A stretch of DNA of 36,436 nucleotides from a virus: the IMG/VR virus record IMGVR_UViG_3300025000_000266, positions 1 to 36,436 of that record; one strand, 5' to 3'. Under the pieces are notes generated by a model, which saw nothing but the letters and a program-made list of their open reading frames with translations, did no database searches and was not told the DNA's origin. A program made the translations under genes and the position numbers. Positions 3,661 through 30,175 of the stretch are shown one piece after another. Position 1 is the stretch's first letter; the number at the start of each line of letters is the position of its first letter.

Positions 3661-3956
3661 TCAGCACCCGCCTTTGCCTCAGTCCATAGCCGGCGCATTT
3701 CGCTGCGCACGTACTTGGGTTTCACGTCGTAGCACCAGCTTGCAAACCGCTCCATATCGGGCTGCGTGGTGATCCATGCATTTTCTAACTTCGATGGAGG
3801 CCAGTATTCGTTAACACCACTTGGAAGCAGACAGTCAGCTCCACCGAAGCCGTCACCGATACAAATGGTGATCTGCGGCGGTGGATCTTTGCGAGGACAC
3901 CCGCTAAGTAACACGAGGGCGACTAAGAGCAGCCCGCCAAGCCTTAAGTGCTTCAC
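3657..3956 (-). CDS. Lipoprotein of the lysis cassette, possible outer-membrane spanin
   Basis: A 99-aa protein starting at GTG (3956), chosen because AGGAGG lies 6 bases upstream. Residues 4-19 are hydrophobic and end in the lipobox LSGC (17-20), so the mature protein would be a lipoprotein. Its start overlaps the 3' end of the gene before it by 53 bases in another frame, a layout typical of Rz/Rz1 pairs, though o-spanins are usually proline-rich and shorter than this. Placement between holin-like genes and the endolysin supports a role in lysis; this part is inference. Confidence 0.65.
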   Translation of the reverse strand: MKHLRLGGLLLVALVLLSGCPRKDPPPQITICIGDGFGGADCLLPSGVNEYWPPSKLENAWITTQPDMERFASWCYDVKPKYVRSEMRRLWTEAKAGAE

Positions 3957-4146
3957 GCCTTTCCTCCTGGTTGGTAGCTCGAGCGGATAATGCCGCTGCG
4001 TCTGCAATAAACGCTAAGTTCTCTTTAGTCTGGGATTCAACCATCCACAGAACAATTTTCCCCGCAAACGCGATAGCGTACTTTGCCAGCTTCTCGGTGG
4101 CGACAACTGCGGAGAACAGACTAAAGAGGAACTCAACGACCCCCAT
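3904..4146 (-). CDS. Small membrane-associated helical protein, possible inner spanin
   Basis: An 80-aa protein with a hydrophobic N-terminal half (residues 3-35, interrupted by charged residues) and an Ala/Glu/Arg-rich helical C-terminal half. Its ATG overlaps the preceding stop by one base (TGATG), and its 3' end is overlapped by the lipoprotein gene. By position it could be the inner-membrane partner of a spanin pair. The membrane segment is not a clean single helix, so it might instead be a holin or antiholin. Confidence 0.6.
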   Translation of the reverse strand: MGVVEFLFSLFSAVVATEKLAKYAIAFAGKIVLWMVESQTKENLAFIADAAALSARATNQEERREALKAWRAALSRPRVT

Positions 4147-16433: not shown

Positions 16434-17336
16434 GTGTTTCTGCCGCATTTGTTCGCGTCTCCATGCCTCATATTCCGATTGGCTCATATTCTCGGGTGAT
16501 TTTGTGACCGATCCCGATGAACCTTTTCCAACTGGTTCGAGAGGCTTGGGCGCCTTGGTTATTTTTTTAGGTTCTGGTTTCTTTTCTTCCGAGAGTTTGG
16601 ATTCGAGCCTTCCCAATTCACGAGCAGCAGCAAGAGGCGGAAGCTTATTGATTCGCTCAAACTCCGCGCGATTCTTTGCCAGCTCGTACATGAGAGCGGG
16701 GCCGTTATCAGACGACACAATGAGTTCTTGGACAACTGCAGAGGCAATTACGTCATCAACCTCAGCAATCACGTCGTCGAAGTCTTTGGTTTGCTTCGCA
16801 AAGGACTTGACCCGTTCAGAGTGGGCTTCCAGTAGGTTTTGCTGCTCGGTTTGCAGTTTCGTCTTCTGATCCTGCTCCTTAGCCGCTTTCTCCTTCTGTT
16901 CGATTTTCCAATCCGTAAGTGCTTCGATGTACTCAGCGTGAGTTTCAAAGCTGTCGGGATTGGGTTTGCCATCAACAACAGGTTTCGTTTCGACCTTCTC
17001 GGTTTTCTCTCCAGCGGGGGTTGTTGCTTTGCCCCGCCAATATTCGAGTTCCCGTTCACGCTCAGCGATACGGAAATTGAGCTTGTCGATTCTGCGTTGA
17101 AAGCCGCCTTTCTTCTTGGGTTTGTCCTTTTCGGAGTCATCGGCTTTGCCTTCGTCCTCATCGGATTCAGACTCTTCCGCGTCGTCTTTTTCCTCTGTCT
17201 CGGTTTCCGCAGCGTCCGATTCTGCGACTTCGTTTTGCTCAGAAGCGTTAGCTTCCAGCTCGGGCTTGATTTCCTCTTTAGCCGCTTCAGCGGATTGATC
17301 CACCGGCACGCTGTTAGAGATTACTTGGATGCTCAT
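16428..17336 (-). CDS. Scaffolding protein
   Basis: A 302-aa, very hydrophilic protein. The first 75 residues are Glu/Asp-rich, followed by KKKGGFQRRIDKLNFRIAER and a predicted coiled coil, then a helical middle and a basic C-terminus ending NMSQSEYEAWRREQMRQKHA. Highly charged helical proteins with an acidic front and basic tail, placed between portal and coat, are typical scaffolds. P22 scaffold is 303 aa. It starts in an ATGA overlap with the portal gene. Confidence 0.82.
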   Translation of the reverse strand: MSIQVISNSVPVDQSAEAAKEEIKPELEANASEQNEVAESDAAETETEEKDDAEESESDEDEGKADDSEKDKPKKKGGFQRRIDKLNFRIAERERELEYWRGKATTPAGEKTEKVETKPVVDGKPNPDSFETHAEYIEALTDWKIEQKEKAAKEQDQKTKLQTEQQNLLEAHSERVKSFAKQTKDFDDVIAEVDDVIASAVVQELIVSSDNGPALMYELAKNRAEFERINKLPPLAAARELGRLESKLSEEKKPEPKKITKAPKPLEPVGKGSSGSVTKSPENMSQSEYEAWRREQMRQKHA

Positions 17337-19546
17337 GGGTTTTCTTCCATTGGTAAGCCCGGTGATTCCCCGCCGGTAGGGTCTTGGCTCATGCCCATCT
17401 CGCCGCCCATCATGGGCTCCATGGCTTCCATGTCCTGCACGCTTTGCATGTCTTGCATGCTTTGTGGTTTGTTCATGCGTTGCATGGGTTGCATGGAGCC
17501 CACAGGGGCGCCGCTCTGGTTCATGTCCGAAAGTTCAAACTGTTCATTGAAGCCGAGCATCTGCGTGCGCTGATCAAGTTCAGCGATTTGATGCGCGAGA
17601 AGGTTCAGGGATTCTTTACTTTCAAGCTTGGCGAGTTCGATGGTCGCTTGAGTTTCAAGCTTCGCCATCTCGATGCGTTCTTTCGATTCGAGTTCAACGC
17701 GCTTGGTGTCGGCTGCGTCTTGAGCTTCGTTCAGCTTTCCGGTGAGCTGCTCGATCAGCTGGTTCATCTGCTGTATCTGGGCTTGGACTTGAGGCGGGAT
17801 TTCCTGCTTAGCCGCCTTGTCGTCGAGTAGTTTGGGGTCAATCGTTTTCTTGATGCGCTCCGCGAGTTCCTGCGCGCCTGGCACGTCCATGTTCTTAACA
17901 ACAAGGTCGCCAGCGATCTGCATCGTCGGAGGGTAGGCCTTCACCATTTCCTGCATGAACATCGCGGCTTCTTGACGTTTGGTCGCGTAGCTCGGGCCAA
18001 CGTCCATCGAAACGTCGTAGCGCCCGGTATCCATGCGATAGATGACGTTCTTCCCGTTCTCTTCAAACGCTGCGTTCAACTTCACCACGCGCTGCTCGCC
18101 GTCCTCGCCAATGATGCGTGCGGTACGTTCGGTGTCGTAGATTGCTGGAATCCATTGCACAAGAATGCGTCCCGCGTGCTTCATTGAGCGCGTGAGGTTG
18201 TCAACGAAGTGGAAGTTTGAGGTCTGCGCCTGTTGGTTCCGGCGCTGAATTGCAACGCCTGAAGTCTCGTTTGAGCGCCCGCCAAGTGATGCGTCGTGAA
18301 TGCCGGTCGTGGACTTGATATCGTCTGCGGCGCCCATCGCGGCCTGAGTGATCGCCATGACAGCGGGCTCGACTGCCATACGCTGAGGCGCTGGCATCGG
18401 CTGGCCACCGACTGAAACAGGATTGTACTCAAGCACCGAATGATTGCGGCTATTCGCGGTAGCCCAATCGTTGCGAAAGCCTTCAATCTGGCCCTTGGCT
18501 GCGACGAACGGAGCTTTTGGAGCAAGCCCGATGGCTTCCATCTCGGCAGACTTCATCACGTTGTAAACGCGCTGAGAGTCCATTGCGTCGCGAGTGATGC
18601 CCTTTAGCACGCGCTTACCGTCAATGACGTGCTCGGTTCCGTAAACGGGAATGATCGGGATGTAGTAGCCGGGGAGTTCGGTCTTTTCTAAAATCTCTGT
18701 GCCATTGAGCTTGCACCACTTGATCGAGGGGATTGAGGCTTTCCGCGTGGCTGCAACGGTGAGGCCTTGAGGAAGGGGCTTCGGTAGCTCGGCAGTTGGA
18801 ACCACCGTTCCGTCGCTGAGCAAAGAAATTTCAATGTCCTTGAATTCCTTGTACAGGTACTCGGTGATTCGAGCCGACTTGTCTTGAATCCATGCGGGCG
18901 CCGATGCAACGCCCATGTCCCACTCACCAGTCGCGTTCAGCTTTGCTTTCGGGTAGCGGGTCTTGAATTCATCCCGCGATATGTCCTCATAGATGAACGC
19001 AAAATTCGCGTCTGAACCGTCCGGCTCCTGCGAGTGCGGGTCAAACAATACGGTGAAGCGGTCGCGAATGCGCTTGATCTTGATTTCTTGGTCAAAGCTC
19101 AGAGGATCCGCGTACTCGGTCAGAAGGCGAAAATAGCCTAAGCCCTCGCCAACCGTGCCCTCAAACGCAGTGTCATAAGCGAAGTCTGCGCTCGAATTCT
19201 TTTCGATGTGGCGAATCAGCCCTGTGATGACTTTCGCGGTCTCAACGTCTGCGCCATCGTCAACCGGGTGAACCTTGATCGACGGGCGATTCTGGCGTTG
19301 ATCATTCGTGACCTGCTGAACGTGCTGCGGAAGTTTGTTAATCGTCAGACAAGGACGGTAGTCGCGCTGACGGCTTGCCTTTACCTTTTCGTCCCACTGG
19401 TCGCCTGTGCGAAATTTGAGCTCCTCTGAAGCTCTAGCGCGTATTTCGCTTTCCGCTTCTTCGGCTAACTTAAAACGTGAGTGTGCCTCAGCGAGAATTT
19501 CCTCGTCGCTGCGTTCTTGTTTCGCTTCGCTGGGAGTGGATGCCAC
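17333..19546 (-). CDS. Portal protein, P22 gp1-like
   Basis: A 737-aa protein (P22 gp1 is 725). The front RFKLAEEAESEIRARASEEL, then KFRTGDQWD, LTINKLPQHVQQVTNDQRQN and RPSIKVHP are typical of the P22-type portal family, which forms the 12-subunit ring for DNA entry. Residues about 590-680 form a long coiled coil as in the P22 barrel, and the last 60 are Met/Gln-rich (MQPMQRMNKPQSMQDMQ and onward). The start is a GTG at 19546 with no clear ribosome site; a shared three-part operator lies 25 bases upstream. Confidence 0.9.
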   Translation of the reverse strand: MASTPSEAKQERSDEEILAEAHSRFKLAEEAESEIRARASEELKFRTGDQWDEKVKASRQRDYRPCLTINKLPQHVQQVTNDQRQNRPSIKVHPVDDGADVETAKVITGLIRHIEKNSSADFAYDTAFEGTVGEGLGYFRLLTEYADPLSFDQEIKIKRIRDRFTVLFDPHSQEPDGSDANFAFIYEDISRDEFKTRYPKAKLNATGEWDMGVASAPAWIQDKSARITEYLYKEFKDIEISLLSDGTVVPTAELPKPLPQGLTVAATRKASIPSIKWCKLNGTEILEKTELPGYYIPIIPVYGTEHVIDGKRVLKGITRDAMDSQRVYNVMKSAEMEAIGLAPKAPFVAAKGQIEGFRNDWATANSRNHSVLEYNPVSVGGQPMPAPQRMAVEPAVMAITQAAMGAADDIKSTTGIHDASLGGRSNETSGVAIQRRNQQAQTSNFHFVDNLTRSMKHAGRILVQWIPAIYDTERTARIIGEDGEQRVVKLNAAFEENGKNVIYRMDTGRYDVSMDVGPSYATKRQEAAMFMQEMVKAYPPTMQIAGDLVVKNMDVPGAQELAERIKKTIDPKLLDDKAAKQEIPPQVQAQIQQMNQLIEQLTGKLNEAQDAADTKRVELESKERIEMAKLETQATIELAKLESKESLNLLAHQIAELDQRTQMLGFNEQFELSDMNQSGAPVGSMQPMQRMNKPQSMQDMQSVQDMEAMEPMMGGEMGMSQDPTGGESPGLPMEENP

Positions 19547-19570
19547 GATTCGATACTGAACCGCGAAAAC

Positions 19571-19598
19571 GTTTAAGCTAATTAAACAACTTGTTTAC
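19571..19598. promoter_or_regulatory. Three-half-site operator, copy 1
   Basis: GTTTAA-N5-TTAAAC-N5-GTTTAC. The half-sites are 11 bases apart, one helical turn, and alternate in direction. The same layout and nearly the same half-sites occur at 22561-22588. This copy lies in the divergent gap between the portal gene (minus) and the gene at 19621 (plus), so it could control either or both. Confidence 0.7.
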
Positions 19599-19620
19599 GT
19601 TTTATGGTATGGGGTACGTC

Positions 19621-19950
19621 ATGAATGAGACAAAAGCGGGAAGAGAATTGGATCGCGCCATAGCCGAGAAGGTGATGGGCCGTAAAGTAACGTGGGATGC
19701 GCCAGACGTTTTACTTCCCGGTCCCCCAGACAACGATGCGCCGAATTACTCAACTTCGATAGACGCTGCTTGGGAAGTGGTGGAGAAACTCAGACCCGAG
19801 TTCGACGTTGTTCTTGAATGTGTGACATCTGAGTTCAACTGCCACATCAATAAGCCTGGAAGGGTCGGAACGCCCGATCACAACCACGTTAGAGCCGACA
19901 CCGCCCCTATGGCGATTTGCCTGGCTGCGCTGAAAGCGGTGGGGGAGTGA
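19621..19950 (+). CDS. Phage ABA-sandwich-like small protein
   Basis: A 109-aa protein against the direction of the late operon. A helix (ETKAGRELDRAIAEKVMG) is followed by YSTSIDAAWEVVEKL, a central strand region, and RADTAPMAICLAALKAV. This order, with the ADTAP-AICLAAL end, is common in small phage proteins that I link loosely to the phage ABA sandwich domain; function unknown. The ATG at 19621 was chosen; one at 19609 is possible. It follows operator copy 1 by 22 bases and is coupled to the next gene by GTGA. Confidence 0.65.
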   Translation: MNETKAGRELDRAIAEKVMGRKVTWDAPDVLLPGPPDNDAPNYSTSIDAAWEVVEKLRPEFDVVLECVTSEFNCHINKPGRVGTPDHNHVRADTAPMAICLAALKAVGE

Positions 19951-20165
19951 ACAACGAAATTAAAAACCACTGCAAGGAGCTGTATAATCTCTGCGCTAAG
20001 GTGACCGGCATCCGAGAAGTGTGCTTGAGGTGCGGATACATCTGGGCTTCGTGGGAAGAATCACATGAGTGCTTGCCGCCTGTCTTCACGTTCACCGAAG
20101 ACGAACTAAAGAACGACGAACTAGAGAAGTTCGCCGCAAAATACGGACCTAAGAAGCGATCATAG
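19947..20165 (+). CDS. Small protein with a CxxC pair
   Basis: A 72-aa protein starting with GTG in the GTGA overlap. It carries EVCLRCGYIWASW, a CxxC-G with following aromatic residues as in half a zinc ribbon, two other Cys upstream and one downstream, and an acidic then basic tail. It ends one base before the convergent FmdB-like gene stops. Function unknown. Confidence 0.6.
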   Translation: MNNEIKNHCKELYNLCAKVTGIREVCLRCGYIWASWEESHECLPPVFTFTEDELKNDELEKFAAKYGPKKRS

Positions 20166-20369
20166 CTAAAACCTATTGTTGTGCCGCTTAGGGCTCGCTG
20201 ACGCTGAGTTATCGCCCGAAATCCAGTACGTTGACGGTGCGCTCAAGCATCTCTCTGTGTTCTCGCTCGGGCACTTGTCACAGCAAGGCCTGATTCCTGC
20301 CTCGCTGCGATACGTGATGACCTCGAAAACGTGACCGCAATCCCTGCATTTATAATCGAAAATTGGCAT
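20166..20369 (-). CDS. FmdB-like zinc-ribbon protein
   Basis: A 67-aa protein beginning MPIFDYKCRDCGHVFE, with a second Cys group RPCCDKC. This is the pattern of FmdB-type putative regulatory zinc ribbons, often seen next to terminase or portal genes in phages. It binds zinc by C8, C11 and the later pair; its target is unknown. It starts 3 bases after the terminase stop with GGGGTG as ribosome site. Confidence 0.8.
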   Translation of the reverse strand: MPIFDYKCRDCGHVFEVITYRSEAGIRPCCDKCPSENTERCLSAPSTYWISGDNSASASPKRHNNRF

Positions 20370-20372
20370 AGT

Positions 20373-21860
20373 TCACCCCATCCAGCTTGTTTCGCCGCAA
20401 TTGAAATATTGATCGTCGCGCGGCTTGTGCGGTGCGATCTTCGGCGTGTGAATGAGCGCAAGAATGTACGCACTCGCAAAGTCAGGTGAGCGACCGATGC
20501 GGCCCACAATGTCCTCTCGAGATTCCACCCGAATCTTTGAACCCTGAAGTTTCCACTTAGGAGCACAGAGGTCTGCTTTTAGCCTCGGGTCATTTGGTAG
20601 CGCGATTCCTGTGTTTTGGGTTGGGTCGAGCGCCTCGCGCATCTTCCACCAGAGTTCTGAACGCAGGTTGAAGAACGAGAGCATTCCAGAGTGATCCTTG
20701 GCGTAGGACGCTTCGGCCACGTTAACTCCTAGCGCGTGCTGGCCCGCGTCTTTCAGGAAGTCGTACGGTGCCGAGCCCACGCCGATCACGTCAACGTGAA
20801 TGGGCGCCTTGTCTCGCGCCGCTGCGATCACAAGCCCCGCAGTAGAAGGACCGTCAGGGGTTTCTTTGCCGGGATATGGCAAGGGCTCATCAAACCACAT
20901 GCCGTGCCGTCTTGCTATGACTGTGTTGTCCTTGCCGCCTCGAGCAACGTCTACCCCTAGTGAATCCATGGGCTCAAGTTTAGCGGGCTTCGTCCAGCGT
21001 GCCATAGCCGCCTCAACCCATTGAGAGGGGATGACTTGGAATGGATCATCCTCAAGCCCGGCGTGGAAGTCGCCGTTTAGCATCTGACTTCTCAATGGCT
21101 CCGGCAACCCCTGAAGCGTGGCCATGTATCCCGTACCCATCAGGTAAGGGTTATCCGTGACACGAGAAGGGATGAACGTGCGAGACATCGGCTTGATTGT
21201 TTCGCTTCCGTGCTGGAACGGTTCGCCGGTTGGGACTTCAACGTCTTTGCCGTCCATGGTGGCAAACCAACGGAGTTCGCCCGGCTGCGCGGGGTTGGGG
21301 TGTGTCTTATCGAGCCATGGAGCGAAGAATGACATCACCCACTGGCCCTCGGATGAGGTTGGCGGATTGAACGTGAGAAGCGCCTGGCAGCGTTGGCATG
21401 GGTCTGTCGTTCTCAGCCACCCAAGCAAGAACCTTACTTGGCTTTCAAGGAAGTTCGTTGCTTCGTCGAATACGAGAAAGTCATGCGCCCTGCCCTGATA
21501 CCTTGTTTCATCGCCCAGATGCGGAACGGATCCAAACTCGATTTGCCGCTTTTCCAGTCGCCATATCTTTTCCTGCCCGTTGTATCCGTCCCGGTTCTTT
21601 AGCAGTTGAGTCAGGCGGTCGATAACACCGGTAAGCTGCGTGGCCTCACGCCGCAGAATCATGGTGTTTCTGTGGCGTCTGATTGCCTTACCACAAGCGA
21701 GATCAGTCTTGCCGCCGCCGGCAGCGCCACCATAACCCAAAATGTCGGCATCGCTTTCAAAGGCTAGGGACTGCGGACCTGGAAGCGGCTTCCAGAGTGA
21801 ATCGCGCCGCTCTTTTTCCTCAAGCAGCGCCAGGAGTTCTAGCTTCTCACTGCGGTTCAT
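20373..21860 (-). CDS. terL: Terminase large subunit
   Basis: A 495-aa packaging motor. Walker A is GAAGGGKT (residues 45-52), Walker B is LVFDEATNF with D132 and E133, and a coupling motif LLTFNPP follows. The C-terminal nuclease part begins near LGVDVARGGKD, with D304 as probable metal ligand. It powers DNA packaging and cuts the concatemer. The ATG lies within the end of the small subunit gene (14-base overlap). Confidence 0.93.
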   Translation of the reverse strand: MNRSEKLELLALLEEKERRDSLWKPLPGPQSLAFESDADILGYGGAAGGGKTDLACGKAIRRHRNTMILRREATQLTGVIDRLTQLLKNRDGYNGQEKIWRLEKRQIEFGSVPHLGDETRYQGRAHDFLVFDEATNFLESQVRFLLGWLRTTDPCQRCQALLTFNPPTSSEGQWVMSFFAPWLDKTHPNPAQPGELRWFATMDGKDVEVPTGEPFQHGSETIKPMSRTFIPSRVTDNPYLMGTGYMATLQGLPEPLRSQMLNGDFHAGLEDDPFQVIPSQWVEAAMARWTKPAKLEPMDSLGVDVARGGKDNTVIARRHGMWFDEPLPYPGKETPDGPSTAGLVIAAARDKAPIHVDVIGVGSAPYDFLKDAGQHALGVNVAEASYAKDHSGMLSFFNLRSELWWKMREALDPTQNTGIALPNDPRLKADLCAPKWKLQGSKIRVESREDIVGRIGRSPDFASAYILALIHTPKIAPHKPRDDQYFNCGETSWMG

Positions 21861-22437
21861 TGGCGGGCTTTGCCTTTGCCATGTGTGCAGCTATCGCAGC
21901 GTCGAGCTGCTCATCCGGTAAGTCCGAAACGTTCTTTGTCTCGATCGGTTTGCCGTCTGGGCCGGAGTGCTCGTGGCGATCCGTAAACAGCTTGAGCTTC
22001 TTACCCAGTAATTCAAGCGCCTTCGTCTTGTCGTAAGCCTTGAACTTCCGAGCCAAGCCAATCGCGTGCTTGTCCTCGCCCTGGCCGTCAAAAATCTCAT
22101 GCACCTCAAGCCCGTTGAGTGAGCGCCTCACGTCCTCGGGTATCTCGCTCAAGGGTTTCATCTGGCCCATCTCATCGAAGGCTTGAGTCATGTCTGCCGT
22201 CGCGATGGCCGCGAGCTCTGAGAGCACTCGTCCGCGGGTTACGCCCATCTCTTCAAGCGCGTGTTCCGTCAGCTCGTCTATACGCTTGCTCAGTGACGGA
22301 TTGTGACGAAGCTCATACCCTCGCTCTTTGGCGCTGTCTGCGCTGTAACCGGCTTCCACGGCTGCTCTTGCGGCATTCCAGTGGGTCACATAGAGCTGAC
22401 AGAAGTGCTCTTGCTTCGGAGTGAGTTTCCCTTTCAC
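21847..22437 (-). CDS. terS: Terminase small subunit
   Basis: A 196-aa protein of the Terminase_2/XtmA type: GKLTPKQEHFCQLYV, then NAARAAVEAGYS (helix-turn-helix) and SLSKRIDELTEHALE. It recognises the packaging site and recruits the large subunit. I chose GTG at 22437 because GGAGG is 9 bases away; a GTG at 22446 is only 1 base from that site. Operator copy 2 lies about 125 bases upstream. Confidence 0.88.
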   Translation of the reverse strand: MKGKLTPKQEHFCQLYVTHWNAARAAVEAGYSADSAKERGYELRHNPSLSKRIDELTEHALEEMGVTRGRVLSELAAIATADMTQAFDEMGQMKPLSEIPEDVRRSLNGLEVHEIFDGQGEDKHAIGLARKFKAYDKTKALELLGKKLKLFTDRHEHSGPDGKPIETKNVSDLPDEQLDAAIAAHMAKAKPANEPQ

Positions 22438-22560
22438 GCTCCCCACCCTCCGTCAGGACCTCGAAAGATGAAAACGCCGAACGTGATAACGCTGGCACAT
22501 AAAACGCCGAAGGTTATTGGGTCGAGAGAATCCATGATTCTCAACGTACCCGCTGCACTC

Positions 22561-22588
22561 GTTTAGAAAAGTTAAACGTTATGTTTAC
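22561..22588. promoter_or_regulatory. Three-half-site operator, copy 2
   Basis: GTTTAG-N5-TTAAAC-N5-GTTTAC, the same half-site order, direction and 11-base spacing as at 19571-19598. It lies between the terminase small subunit (minus) and the ribbon-helix-helix-like gene at 22624 (plus). TATATT at 22612-22617 could be the -10 box of the plus-strand gene. Confidence 0.7.
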
Positions 22589-22623
22589 CTTTTCTTTGTA
22601 CAAAACGCGGCTATATTGGACCC

Positions 22624-22836
22624 ATGAGCATATCACTTGATTCGATTCTTGCGGACTTCGGAACCGAAGATTTAGCGCGTGCTAACTGGCGCTCTCGTGT
22701 TGCCGTAACGGTGTGGCTCTCGCCCGAGTTCAAGGCGCGATATGACAAGCTCCAACAGGCGAGCGGAAGGCGCTTTCACAAGAAGGTGCGCGAACTGCTT
22801 CAGGCCGCAATTGAGCAAGCCGAGCTGCGCATTTAG
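22624..22836 (+). CDS. Ribbon-helix-helix-like small protein
   Basis: A 70-aa protein. Residues 24-66 (RVAVTVWLSPEFKARYDKLQ and onward through HKKVRELLQAAIEQ) show one strand followed by two helices, as in Arc/CopG/MetJ-type DNA-binding proteins, which dimerise by the strand. Members bind half-sites one helical turn apart, as in the operator 36 bases upstream. Autoregulation and control of late genes are inference. The ribosome site is weak. Confidence 0.55.
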   Translation: MSISLDSILADFGTEDLARANWRSRVAVTVWLSPEFKARYDKLQQASGRRFHKKVRELLQAAIEQAELRI

Positions 22837-22850
22837 CGCGGAAAATATAC

Positions 22851-23345
22851 TCAGAAAAACAGCGAGAACCGCGCGAAATCAAACTCAATAGCAGTGTCAG
22901 ACGAACCAACAGCAAGCACCGTTGCGCTGGGCGAGTAGCTCACCCTGTCGCTCAAACGAAACCGCTTCCCGGCGGAAAACATATAAGCCATTTCAACGTC
23001 GCTAACAGTTCCAGACGAAACCCCAACGGCACCAAGCGAGGCCGATAGGTAAAACGCGTTGCCAATGTCCGCATCGCCAGCGTTTACGATCAGCCCGCCA
23101 AGGATGGACGATAGCCTTACTGTTTTATTGTTCACGGTCTCACTAACGACCGCCGCCGTAGTGATCGCGCCGACGTTTGGCGCGAAGTAATATGCTGCGG
23201 TGGATCCGACGTTCATGGTGCTTGAATCACCGACAAAGCTCAGTGACCCGGTGTAGGCGGTCATCTCCAGCCTGATGGGTGCGATCTCCTGAGCATGAAC
23301 CGTGGATACAAGAAGGGTCGAGATTGCCATTATGATTTTTTTCAT
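22851..23345 (-). CDS. Exported outer-membrane beta-barrel-like protein
   Basis: A 164-aa protein with a clear signal peptide (MKKIIMAISTLLVSTVHAQE, cleavage after AHA-like VHA). The rest is made of alternating strands with aromatic ends and finishes FDFARFSLFF, the terminal Phe motif used by the outer-membrane assembly machine. Its size would suit an eight-strand barrel such as Lom/OmpX/Ail. Phage genes of this type alter the lysogen surface. It is alone between two plus-strand genes and has its own upstream palindrome (23405-23418). Confidence 0.65.
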   Translation of the reverse strand: MKKIIMAISTLLVSTVHAQEIAPIRLEMTAYTGSLSFVGDSSTMNVGSTAAYYFAPNVGAITTAAVVSETVNNKTVRLSSILGGLIVNAGDADIGNAFYLSASLGAVGVSSGTVSDVEMAYMFSAGKRFRLSDRVSYSPSATVLAVGSSDTAIEFDFARFSLFF

Positions 23346-24450: not shown

Positions 24451-24489
24451 TTAAATGGTAACCTTTCCGACCGACAAAAAAACGACAGA

Positions 24490-24513
24490 CTTTGGCGGAT
24501 TTGACTACCAAAG
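24490..24513. promoter_or_regulatory. Switch operator with -35 box
   Basis: An inverted repeat CTTTGG (24490-24495) and CCAAAG (24508-24513) frames TTGACT (24501-24506), a near-consensus -35. A -10 is less clear (TTGTAT at 24526 with 19-base spacing). The placement fits a repressor site over the early promoter. Confidence 0.5.
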
Positions 24514-24543
24514 CCGCCAGTTTCGTTGTATTGTGCAATCAGA

Positions 24544-28583: not shown

Positions 28584-29201
28584 GTGGGAGCAAGAAGTGG
28601 AAAAAGGTGTGTCGAAAATGACATTAGACATACCAAAATAGTAGGTGACTTTCGGCGCGATGGCAAGCGGCTAACAGGCGCCGATCAAATCATCATTCTG
28701 CCGCGGGGTGAGTTTACCGTTGTCGATGCTGACGATTACGCCATGGTCAGCAAGCACCGGTTTCGGGTGCGCGGCGGATACGCCATCACAACAATTGATG
28801 GGCGCACGGTCGGCCTTCACCGCCTGATTCTTGACGCCAAGCCAGGACAGACCGTTGACCACATCGACGGAAACCCGCTGAACAATCGCCGTTCCAATCT
28901 GCGGTTTTGCACACATACGCAGAACATGCACAACCGCCGCAAGGACAGGGGCGGCAACACGTCCAAATTCAAAGGCGTCCACTTCGCGCCGCATGTCGGC
29001 AAATGGATTGCCAAGATCGGTTACCAGAAAAAACAGCAACACATCGGATGCTTCGACACTGAGGAAGCTGCCGCGCAAGCCTACGACCAGCGTGCGCTCG
29101 ATTTATTTGGAAAGTTCGCAAAGACAAACCTTCCTTGCTGCTTCTGGCAGGGAACGGGCGTGTGCGCTTGCGAGATTTGTCAGCCGGGCGGTGCCGCGTG
29201 A
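28584..29201 (+). CDS. HNH endonuclease with AP2 DNA-binding domain
   Basis: A 205-aa protein. Residues 78-118 form an HNH nuclease (GLHRLILDAKPGQTVDHIDG, then NPLNNRRSNLRFCT) with H93 and N101, and residues 127-182 an AP2-like domain (SKFKGVHFAPHVGKWIAKIG). This is a free-standing homing endonuclease type. The C-terminal extension has five cysteines (C185, C186, C194, C196, C199), less usual. The start is uncertain: GTG at 28584 has only a weak site. It is coupled to the next gene by GTGA. Confidence 0.82.
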   Translation: MGARSGKRCVENDIRHTKIVGDFRRDGKRLTGADQIIILPRGEFTVVDADDYAMVSKHRFRVRGGYAITTIDGRTVGLHRLILDAKPGQTVDHIDGNPLNNRRSNLRFCTHTQNMHNRRKDRGGNTSKFKGVHFAPHVGKWIAKIGYQKKQQHIGCFDTEEAAAQAYDQRALDLFGKFAKTNLPCCFWQGTGVCACEICQPGGAA

Positions 29202-30175
29202 GCATCCTTCGCGTTGTCTCTGTGTCCGGCGGGAAGGACTCCACCGCTCTTTACTGTTGGGCTATCGACCAGTGGGGCAGAGACGGATTTAAGGCCGTGT
29301 TTGCAGACACGGGCCATGAGCACCCGGTTACTTATAATTATCTGCGCAATCTTCCTGATATGGCGGGTGGTCCAGAAATCACATGGGTTAGGGCAGACTT
29401 TTCAGAGAAGTTAAAAAACAAGGGCATCGAGCCGAGCGGAAATCCGTTTTTGGACATGATGCTGTGGAAGGGGCGGGCACCAAGCACGACCGCTCAGTTC
29501 TGCACAGAAAACACCAAACTCGCACCCATGGCTGCGTGGCTTGAAACAGTCCGTGAAGATCGTGGCGACGGGGAGGTAATTCAGTATACCGGGATCAGGG
29601 CGGGTGAGAGCGCAAAGCGTGCGCTAATGCCGCCTCGCGAGTTTGTTGACTACTTTGATTGCTACACCGAGCGCCCGCTGCTTCGCTGGAATGAGGAACA
29701 GGTTTTTGATTACCTGAAATCCAAAGGCGTCCCTCCGAACCCTCTCTATGAGCATGGCTCGGCTCGCGTTGGCTGTTACCCCTGCATTCACTCGCGTAAA
29801 TCCGAACTCGCAAACATGCCCGACTGGGCGTGGGACAAGCTACAAGAGTGGGAGTCTCGCCTTGGCGGTAATTGGTTTTTGCCTGGGATCATCCCCCTCT
29901 CGCCAGAGATTGCCCGCCGAAAATCCGAAATCATGACTGAGCGGGATGCAATGGTTTGCGACGAAGAAAAGGGAAGTTCGGGAAAGCTCAAGTCTGAACT
30001 GGATCGCCCAAGATACGATGAACTCACTGCGGAACTTCTTGGCTTAATAATTCCAAAAATAAAAGACGTTCGAGAATGGTGCCGGACTGCTCGCGGGGGG
30101 CGGCAGTTCGACCTCTTCGGAGAGGACGCAAAAGACATTCCCACCTGCATGAGCACATGGGGGATCTGCGAATGA
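29198..30175 (+). CDS. PAPS-reductase / ATP-pyrophosphatase family protein
   Basis: A 325-aa PP-loop protein. SGGKDS (residues 10-15) binds ATP, FCTENTKLAP (101-110) and GIRAGES (132-138) are family marks, and VGCYPCIHSR provides C193 and C196. Members adenylate or transfer sulfur; phage relatives are named PAPS reductase or DndC-like. No dnd partners are seen here, so phosphorothioation is not shown. GTG start overlaps the HNH stop. Could also be nucleotide or tRNA thiolation. Confidence 0.8.
   Translation: MSILRVVSVSGGKDSTALYCWAIDQWGRDGFKAVFADTGHEHPVTYNYLRNLPDMAGGPEITWVRADFSEKLKNKGIEPSGNPFLDMMLWKGRAPSTTAQFCTENTKLAPMAAWLETVREDRGDGEVIQYTGIRAGESAKRALMPPREFVDYFDCYTERPLLRWNEEQVFDYLKSKGVPPNPLYEHGSARVGCYPCIHSRKSELANMPDWAWDKLQEWESRLGGNWFLPGIIPLSPEIARRKSEIMTERDAMVCDEEKGSSGKLKSELDRPRYDELTAELLGLIIPKIKDVREWCRTARGGRQFDLFGEDAKDIPTCMSTWGICE

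Follow-up and report, generated by a model that had tools for sequence, protein, structure and literature searches.

The locus described here raises the question of why two late units of a phage should be preceded by the same short, evenly phased DNA boxes, and which protein would recognize them. The window, by which we mean the whole analysed stretch of 36,436 nucleotides, is an IMG/VR virus record (IMGVR_UViG_3300025000_000266) in which PHROGs families account for the portal, scaffold, coat, head-closure and terminase proteins; P22-type phages are among the relatives found for the portal. The late genes are encoded on the minus strand: the terminase subunits (terS and terL) are read from a gap at 22561, and the portal and the genes following it from another at 19571. 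Both gaps are divergent, as a sequence-only reading of this DNA had stated, and each holds one copy of the motif GTTTAR-N5-TTAAAC-N5-GTTTAC (Table 1).

Table 1. Arrays, putative promoter elements and neighbouring genes in the window
Feature	Position	Strand	Remarks
Portal gene	17333..19546	-	GTG start 24 nt past array 1; without clear Shine-Dalgarno; first in the capsid/tail unit
Putative -10 of the portal promoter	19553..19558	-	CAGTAT, 12 nt past the last box
Array 1	19571..19598	+	Three 6-bp boxes 11 bp apart, GTTTAA (19571-19576), TTAAAC (19582-19587), GTTTAC (19593-19598); before portal
Terminase large subunit	20373..21860	-	
Terminase small subunit	21847..22446	-	
33-aa hydrophobic ORF	22434..22535	-	MDSLDPITFG...; probably leaderless; ATG 25 nt past array 2; overlaps the terS start
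Putative -10 of the terS-unit promoter	22543..22548	-	TACGTT, 12 nt past the last box
Array 2	22561..22588	+	Three boxes, GTTTAG (22561-22566), TTAAAC (22572-22577), GTTTAC (22583-22588); in the gap from which the 22624 gene and the terS unit diverge
Degenerate fourth box	22594..22599		CTTTGT, in the 11-bp register of array 2, on the 22624-gene side
Putative -10 of the 22624 gene	22612..22617	+	TATATT, 6 nt ahead of the ATG; leaderless-type promoter
Probable ribbon-helix-helix regulator (22624 gene)	22624..22836	+	70 aa; proposed binder of both arrays

The two copies, with their equal spacing and order, had been noticed from the letters alone, and they are confirmed. A search of the window allowing up to three mismatches returned two matches in total, both exact, against a mean of 0.01 in 100 dinucleotide shuffles of the window, none of which contained two copies. 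Furthermore, of the 46 occurrences of GTTTA in the window, none lie closer together than 25 bases except at the two arrays, and these also rank at the top window-wide when three 6-mers that resemble one another, 11 bp apart and in either orientation, are sought without any consensus. Array 2 extends in register toward the 22624 gene with one weak box. Since each box comes close to a palindrome (GTWWAC), little meaning would attach to the half-site order, though it is the same in both copies.

The pattern is kept at the same two places in relatives. One contig, recovered as L032, L063 and L143, is identical to the window (100% over 11,943 bases) and, being the same phage, was not counted among the relatives. 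In five other related contigs, two to four 6-bp boxes stand before the portal and/or the terS unit; the boxes are mostly STWWAS-like, quasi-palindromic and normally 11 bp apart, and their exact letters vary from phage to phage. In L064 (G001; portal 54% and terL 82% identical), the boxes, given here in the late-gene direction and with N5 spacers, read CTATAC-GTAAAC-TTATAC-GTAAAG before the portal and GTAAAA-TTATAC-GTAAAA-ATAAAG on the terS side. L159 (G002; portal 56% identical) has four times CTATAG before the portal and GTATAC-ATATAG-TTATAG on the terS side; L167, a short contig without capsid genes, has CTTTAA-CTTTAA-TTAAAG; and L010, which was reached through the DNA motif alone, encodes a portal 56% identical and shows CTAAAC-ATAAAC-GTTTAA-GTAAAC before it, the contig stopping before the regulator gap. 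L169 (portal 45% identical) fits partly: GTTAAC-N5-TATAAC, two boxes 11 bp apart, is present at both places, with further boxes at a spacing of 10 to 12. This contig comes from a Bdellovibrionaceae MAG, which hints, if weakly, at Bdellovibrio-like bacteria as hosts. Homologs of the 22624 protein are encoded in L064, L159 (48% identical), L167 (51%) and L169. Among 32 assigned boxes, T at position 2 and A at position 5 occur in 30 and an A/T centre in all 32, counts which are descriptive only, the boxes having been picked by us; this pattern suggests quasi-palindromic sites occupied by one dimer each, so that here too the half-site order need not mean anything. The earlier proposal of fixed half-sites and variable spacers, repeated at one turn of the helix before portal and terminase unit, is thus supported, and its own test on relatives, which might have lacked the pattern, came out in its favour.

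The position of the arrays relative to the late genes is even more constant than their letters. In all ten array/late-gene pairs, from six contigs, 24 or 25 nt separate the end of the last box from the late start codon, and in eight of them a -10-like hexamer of the form YAnnnT starts 12 nt past the box. The first seven pairs all have this 12-nt distance, the extra base of the 25-nt cases lying between the -10 and the start codon; when these pairs are aligned at the last box, the -10 score is maximal at +12, columns 14 and 18 hold A and T, respectively, in every pair (7/7), and none of 20,000 shuffles reaches the score. The same holds for all ten pairs (0/20,000), although both shuffle counts are post hoc, as both rules, on spacing and on the -10, had been derived from the first seven pairs before they were tested. 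The three pairs found later, in L010 and L169, all obey the 24/25-nt rule and one of them the exact YAnnnT rule: in L010 the array ends 24 nt before the portal start, with CAGGAT at +12, and in L169 the corresponding position holds GACAAT at terS and no match at the portal.

Hexamers read by eye at the -35 position of the seven pairs match TTGACA at three of six positions at most, so that the late promoters appear to combine weak -10 elements with no consensus -35. The promoters of the 22624-type genes, likewise read by eye, have no recognisable -35 either, and its absence at the late promoters may then reflect the host rather than activation. Moreover, at nine array-linked late starts the Shine-Dalgarno match is three bases at the longest, or none, as compared with four or more bases at 15 of the 31 listed window starts; because these array-linked starts mostly have no clear Shine-Dalgarno, the late mRNAs are probably leaderless. 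On the other side of the gap, the 22624-type genes carry TATANT 6 nt ahead of the ATG in four of five cases, L169 having GAACAT. The lengths of the divergent gap in five contigs (88, 88, 87, 87 and 98 nt) fit the sum of 24/25 nt, four boxes and 24/25 nt, with one more box in L169. In terms of sequence geometry, the array sits where a -35 element would be, as in class II activator promoters. Between array and terS, L064 has a different 72-aa ORF in the place of the 33-aa ORF of the window.

How specific this arrangement is can be seen from a consensus-free promoter scan in which the array, its spacing, the start codon and the -10 are scored together. Lower thresholds were used because at 15 the scan recovered four of the seven late pairs then known. 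At threshold 13 it gave seven hits in the five contigs that carry the regulator (126.8 kb), each at an expected start: six are late starts (terS unit or portal) and one is the start of a 22624-type gene, with none in L169. The 92 loci lacking the regulator (896 kb) gave no hit. At threshold 12 there were nine hits in the five contigs, again all at expected starts, and nine in the 92 regulator-less loci. In 12 named P22-like regions no homolog of the 22624 regulator was detected and none passed at threshold 13; three of them (L146, L150 and L154) have one chance-like hit each at threshold 12.

The exact motif was also considered as a family marker and rejected: among the 80 terL relatives listed plus L143, matches with up to three mismatches occur in L063 and L143 only, which are not independent of the window. 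In IMG/VR it was found in 60 stretches, at 62 places altogether. Four of these places have an ATG/GTG ORF at 24/25 nt: two in L032, which is the same phage as the window, one in L010 and one in L006, which is unrelated. The promoter scan of these 60 loci gave eight hits, L032 twice, L010 and five others that we take for chance in AT-rich DNA. In L006, a 60.7-kb contig with no detected homologs of window genes in the stretch compared, two copies of the same box pattern lie 260 bp apart (3813-3839 and 4073-4099).

The sequence-only reading had also linked the arrays to plus-strand small genes, those at 19621 in the case of the portal gap. These genes start out of register with the array, and L159 and L010 have a portal array without any counter-oriented genes, which shows that the arrays go with the portal and not with the 19621 genes. 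The segment in question (19621-20165, plus strand) is a counter-oriented cassette between terL and portal that includes a Phage_ABA_S domain protein; a cassette of this type is also present in L064 and, by its visible end, in L167.

What kind of protein, then, is encoded next to array 2? That it has a ribbon-helix-helix (RHH) fold, as proposed from the sequence, is plausible and in our view likely, although the matches pointing to it are weak. The family shows a strand with an invariant W followed by two helices. AF2 models of two monomers reach mean pLDDT values of 63.5 and 69.2: the window-first model is one long helix of low confidence and uninformative, and that of the L167 homolog, made with five sequences, has an extended stretch followed by helices at 32-44 and 46-67 with a pLDDT of about 80-85 there. 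Foldseek against the PDB returned six matches, the best with an E of 2.8, including 3no7 ParB (Z 2.8 with VIA), which we take to be an RHH centromere protein; a viral fold search gave nothing significant. The NCBIfam RelB-like model matches one of five members (residues 32-67, E 0.01, 16.1 bits against a cut-off of 50), no RHH family of Pfam was detected at E up to 1 in the four members scanned, and hhalign produced no alignment to P22 Arc and a weak one to P22 Mnt (P 0.017). Searches for RHH proteins gave no match in phages, none in genome contigs and nothing relevant among solved structures. Operators of RHH proteins in which repeats follow each other at one turn are known, and the similar sub-sites found here, about one turn apart and overlapping the promoter of the putative regulator itself, fit this type. 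The regulator gene adjoins a secreted-looking protein with a signal-like N-terminus (22851-23345, minus strand) that has no PHROGs match and no Pfam match above cut-off.

We consider it quite probable, from gene association and conservation, that the arrays are the binding sites of the 22624 protein and serve to control these transcripts. The regulator gene noted earlier beside copy 2 is divergent from the terS unit in all five contigs holding the gap, with the array in its own promoter, and among 55 window ORFs it is the sole non-structural, non-packaging one with homologs in G001, G002, L167 and L169. Several helix-turn-helix (HTH) proteins are encoded in the window, and it is conceivable, if unlikely, that the binder is one of these (the 24127 repressor, the Cro-like protein at 24526 or the 27961 protein), TerS, or a host regulator. 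The three HTH proteins have no homolog in the same four relatives, nor has the 27973 regulator which, with the 24127 repressor, had been suggested as a binder, and TerS has none in L169. Moreover, the array boxes were not found in the 24450/24526 switch gap; this divergent HTH gap (24451-24525) has an inverted repeat of its own (CTTTGGCGG ... CCAAAGCCGCC) that does not resemble the arrays. As for a host factor common to these phages, box letters that differ from one related phage to another would not be expected of it, unless the hosts differ. Very improbable, to our mind, is a partition or packaging site, with an RHH protein of the ParR type on repeats like those of a centromere, or with a pac/cos role. 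It is true that one array adjoins terS and that ParR of plasmid R1, an RHH protein as the 22624 product probably is, binds 11-bp repeats according to a passage of PMC9426499; however, no ParM/ParA, partition ATPase or actin-like gene was found among the subset of window ORFs scanned against PHROGs, and each of the two arrays is fixed 24-25 nt before a start codon, a placing that a centromere or pac site does not need. Least probable of all is a stray type II antitoxin with the arrays as its ordinary operator: the RelB-like match that speaks for it lies below cut-off, the relatives share no partner gene, the next gene in the window is on the opposite strand, and such an operator would leave the portal arrays unexplained.

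If the 22624 protein is the binder, each quasi-symmetric 6-bp box would take up a single RHH dimer, and neighbouring dimers, spaced by one turn of the helix, would bind cooperatively along one face of the DNA. With the last box 12 nt upstream of a weak -10, the array would flank and replace the -35 of two late promoters, those of terS-terL and of portal-scaffold-capsid-tail, and would at the same time lie within the leaderless promoter of the 22624 gene itself, in the 87-98 nt gap shared by the divergent units. The protein would then most likely be a late activator that recruits RNA polymerase to the late promoters and regulates its own gene. Given binding, we provisionally favour activation, with chances a little better than even, because the array surrounds the -35 in the manner of a cII-like or PhoP-like class II site, the late -10s are weak and a consensus -35 is lacking; the whole proposition, that the 22624 protein binds the arrays, activates both late operons and autoregulates, has a nearly even chance. 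The same binder and arrays could instead serve repression in the manner of Arc, Mnt or CopG, with both late operons kept off early (or in a lysogen) and the regulator's own gene repressed, a doubtful but serious alternative given what RHH proteins usually do and that the promoter of the regulator gene has no recognisable -35 either. Most known RHH regulators are repressors and repress their own genes; the array would crowd the -35 region, the annotated operator of P22 arc lies inside its promoter, and the degenerate box nearest the 22624 promoter in the window would suit a self-repression weaker than that of the late genes. Against this, late promoters with weak -10s and no visible -35 would be weak for structural genes once freed, and by the presumed geometry a repressor on the boxes, about half a turn away from the -35 groove, need not clash with sigma.

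Compared with known systems, P22 Arc and Mnt are likewise small regulators of a phage, their operators lie within or close to promoters, and Arc half-sites are about one turn apart. Nevertheless, as the hhalign results above indicate, the 22624 protein is not readily aligned with either; Arc controls an antirepressor gene, not late structural operons, and the window phage has three to four boxes, located further upstream and at two late promoters. Class II sites offer another parallel: passages of PMC3335776 and PMC7419079 describe PhoP class II boxes about 12 nt upstream of the -10 and lambda cII repeats straddling the -35, and one of PMC3978041 a pho box of two 11-bp repeats. In the cII and PhoP/PhoB promoters the repeats are likewise about one turn apart around the -35, but the window phage has a probable RHH protein rather than an HTH or winged-helix one, three to four boxes and leaderless-type starts. 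No open-access title was found that reports an RHH array at a fixed distance to two probable leaderless late promoters. It is possible, though we would put its chances somewhat below even, that we are dealing with a new class of phage late-gene switch, in which a 70-aa RHH activator, aligned on three to four phased boxes, stands in for the -35 at its own promoter as well as at two leaderless late promoters, the geometry being kept while the box sequence drifts. More generally, the scheme proposed here would give a function to an unannotated family of phage proteins and define the late promoters of a P22-like podovirus group; it would also provide a natural series of related regulators, useful for the study of DNA recognition, in which binding letters drift and promoter geometry stays fixed. 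If the protein does activate, it would stand out among phage late activators, its proposed fold being one found mostly in repressors.

Elsewhere in the window, on the plus strand, the phage carries a phosphoadenosine phosphosulfate reductase-like gene (29135-30175) and a homing-type HNH endonuclease with a weak AP2 domain match (28584-29201).
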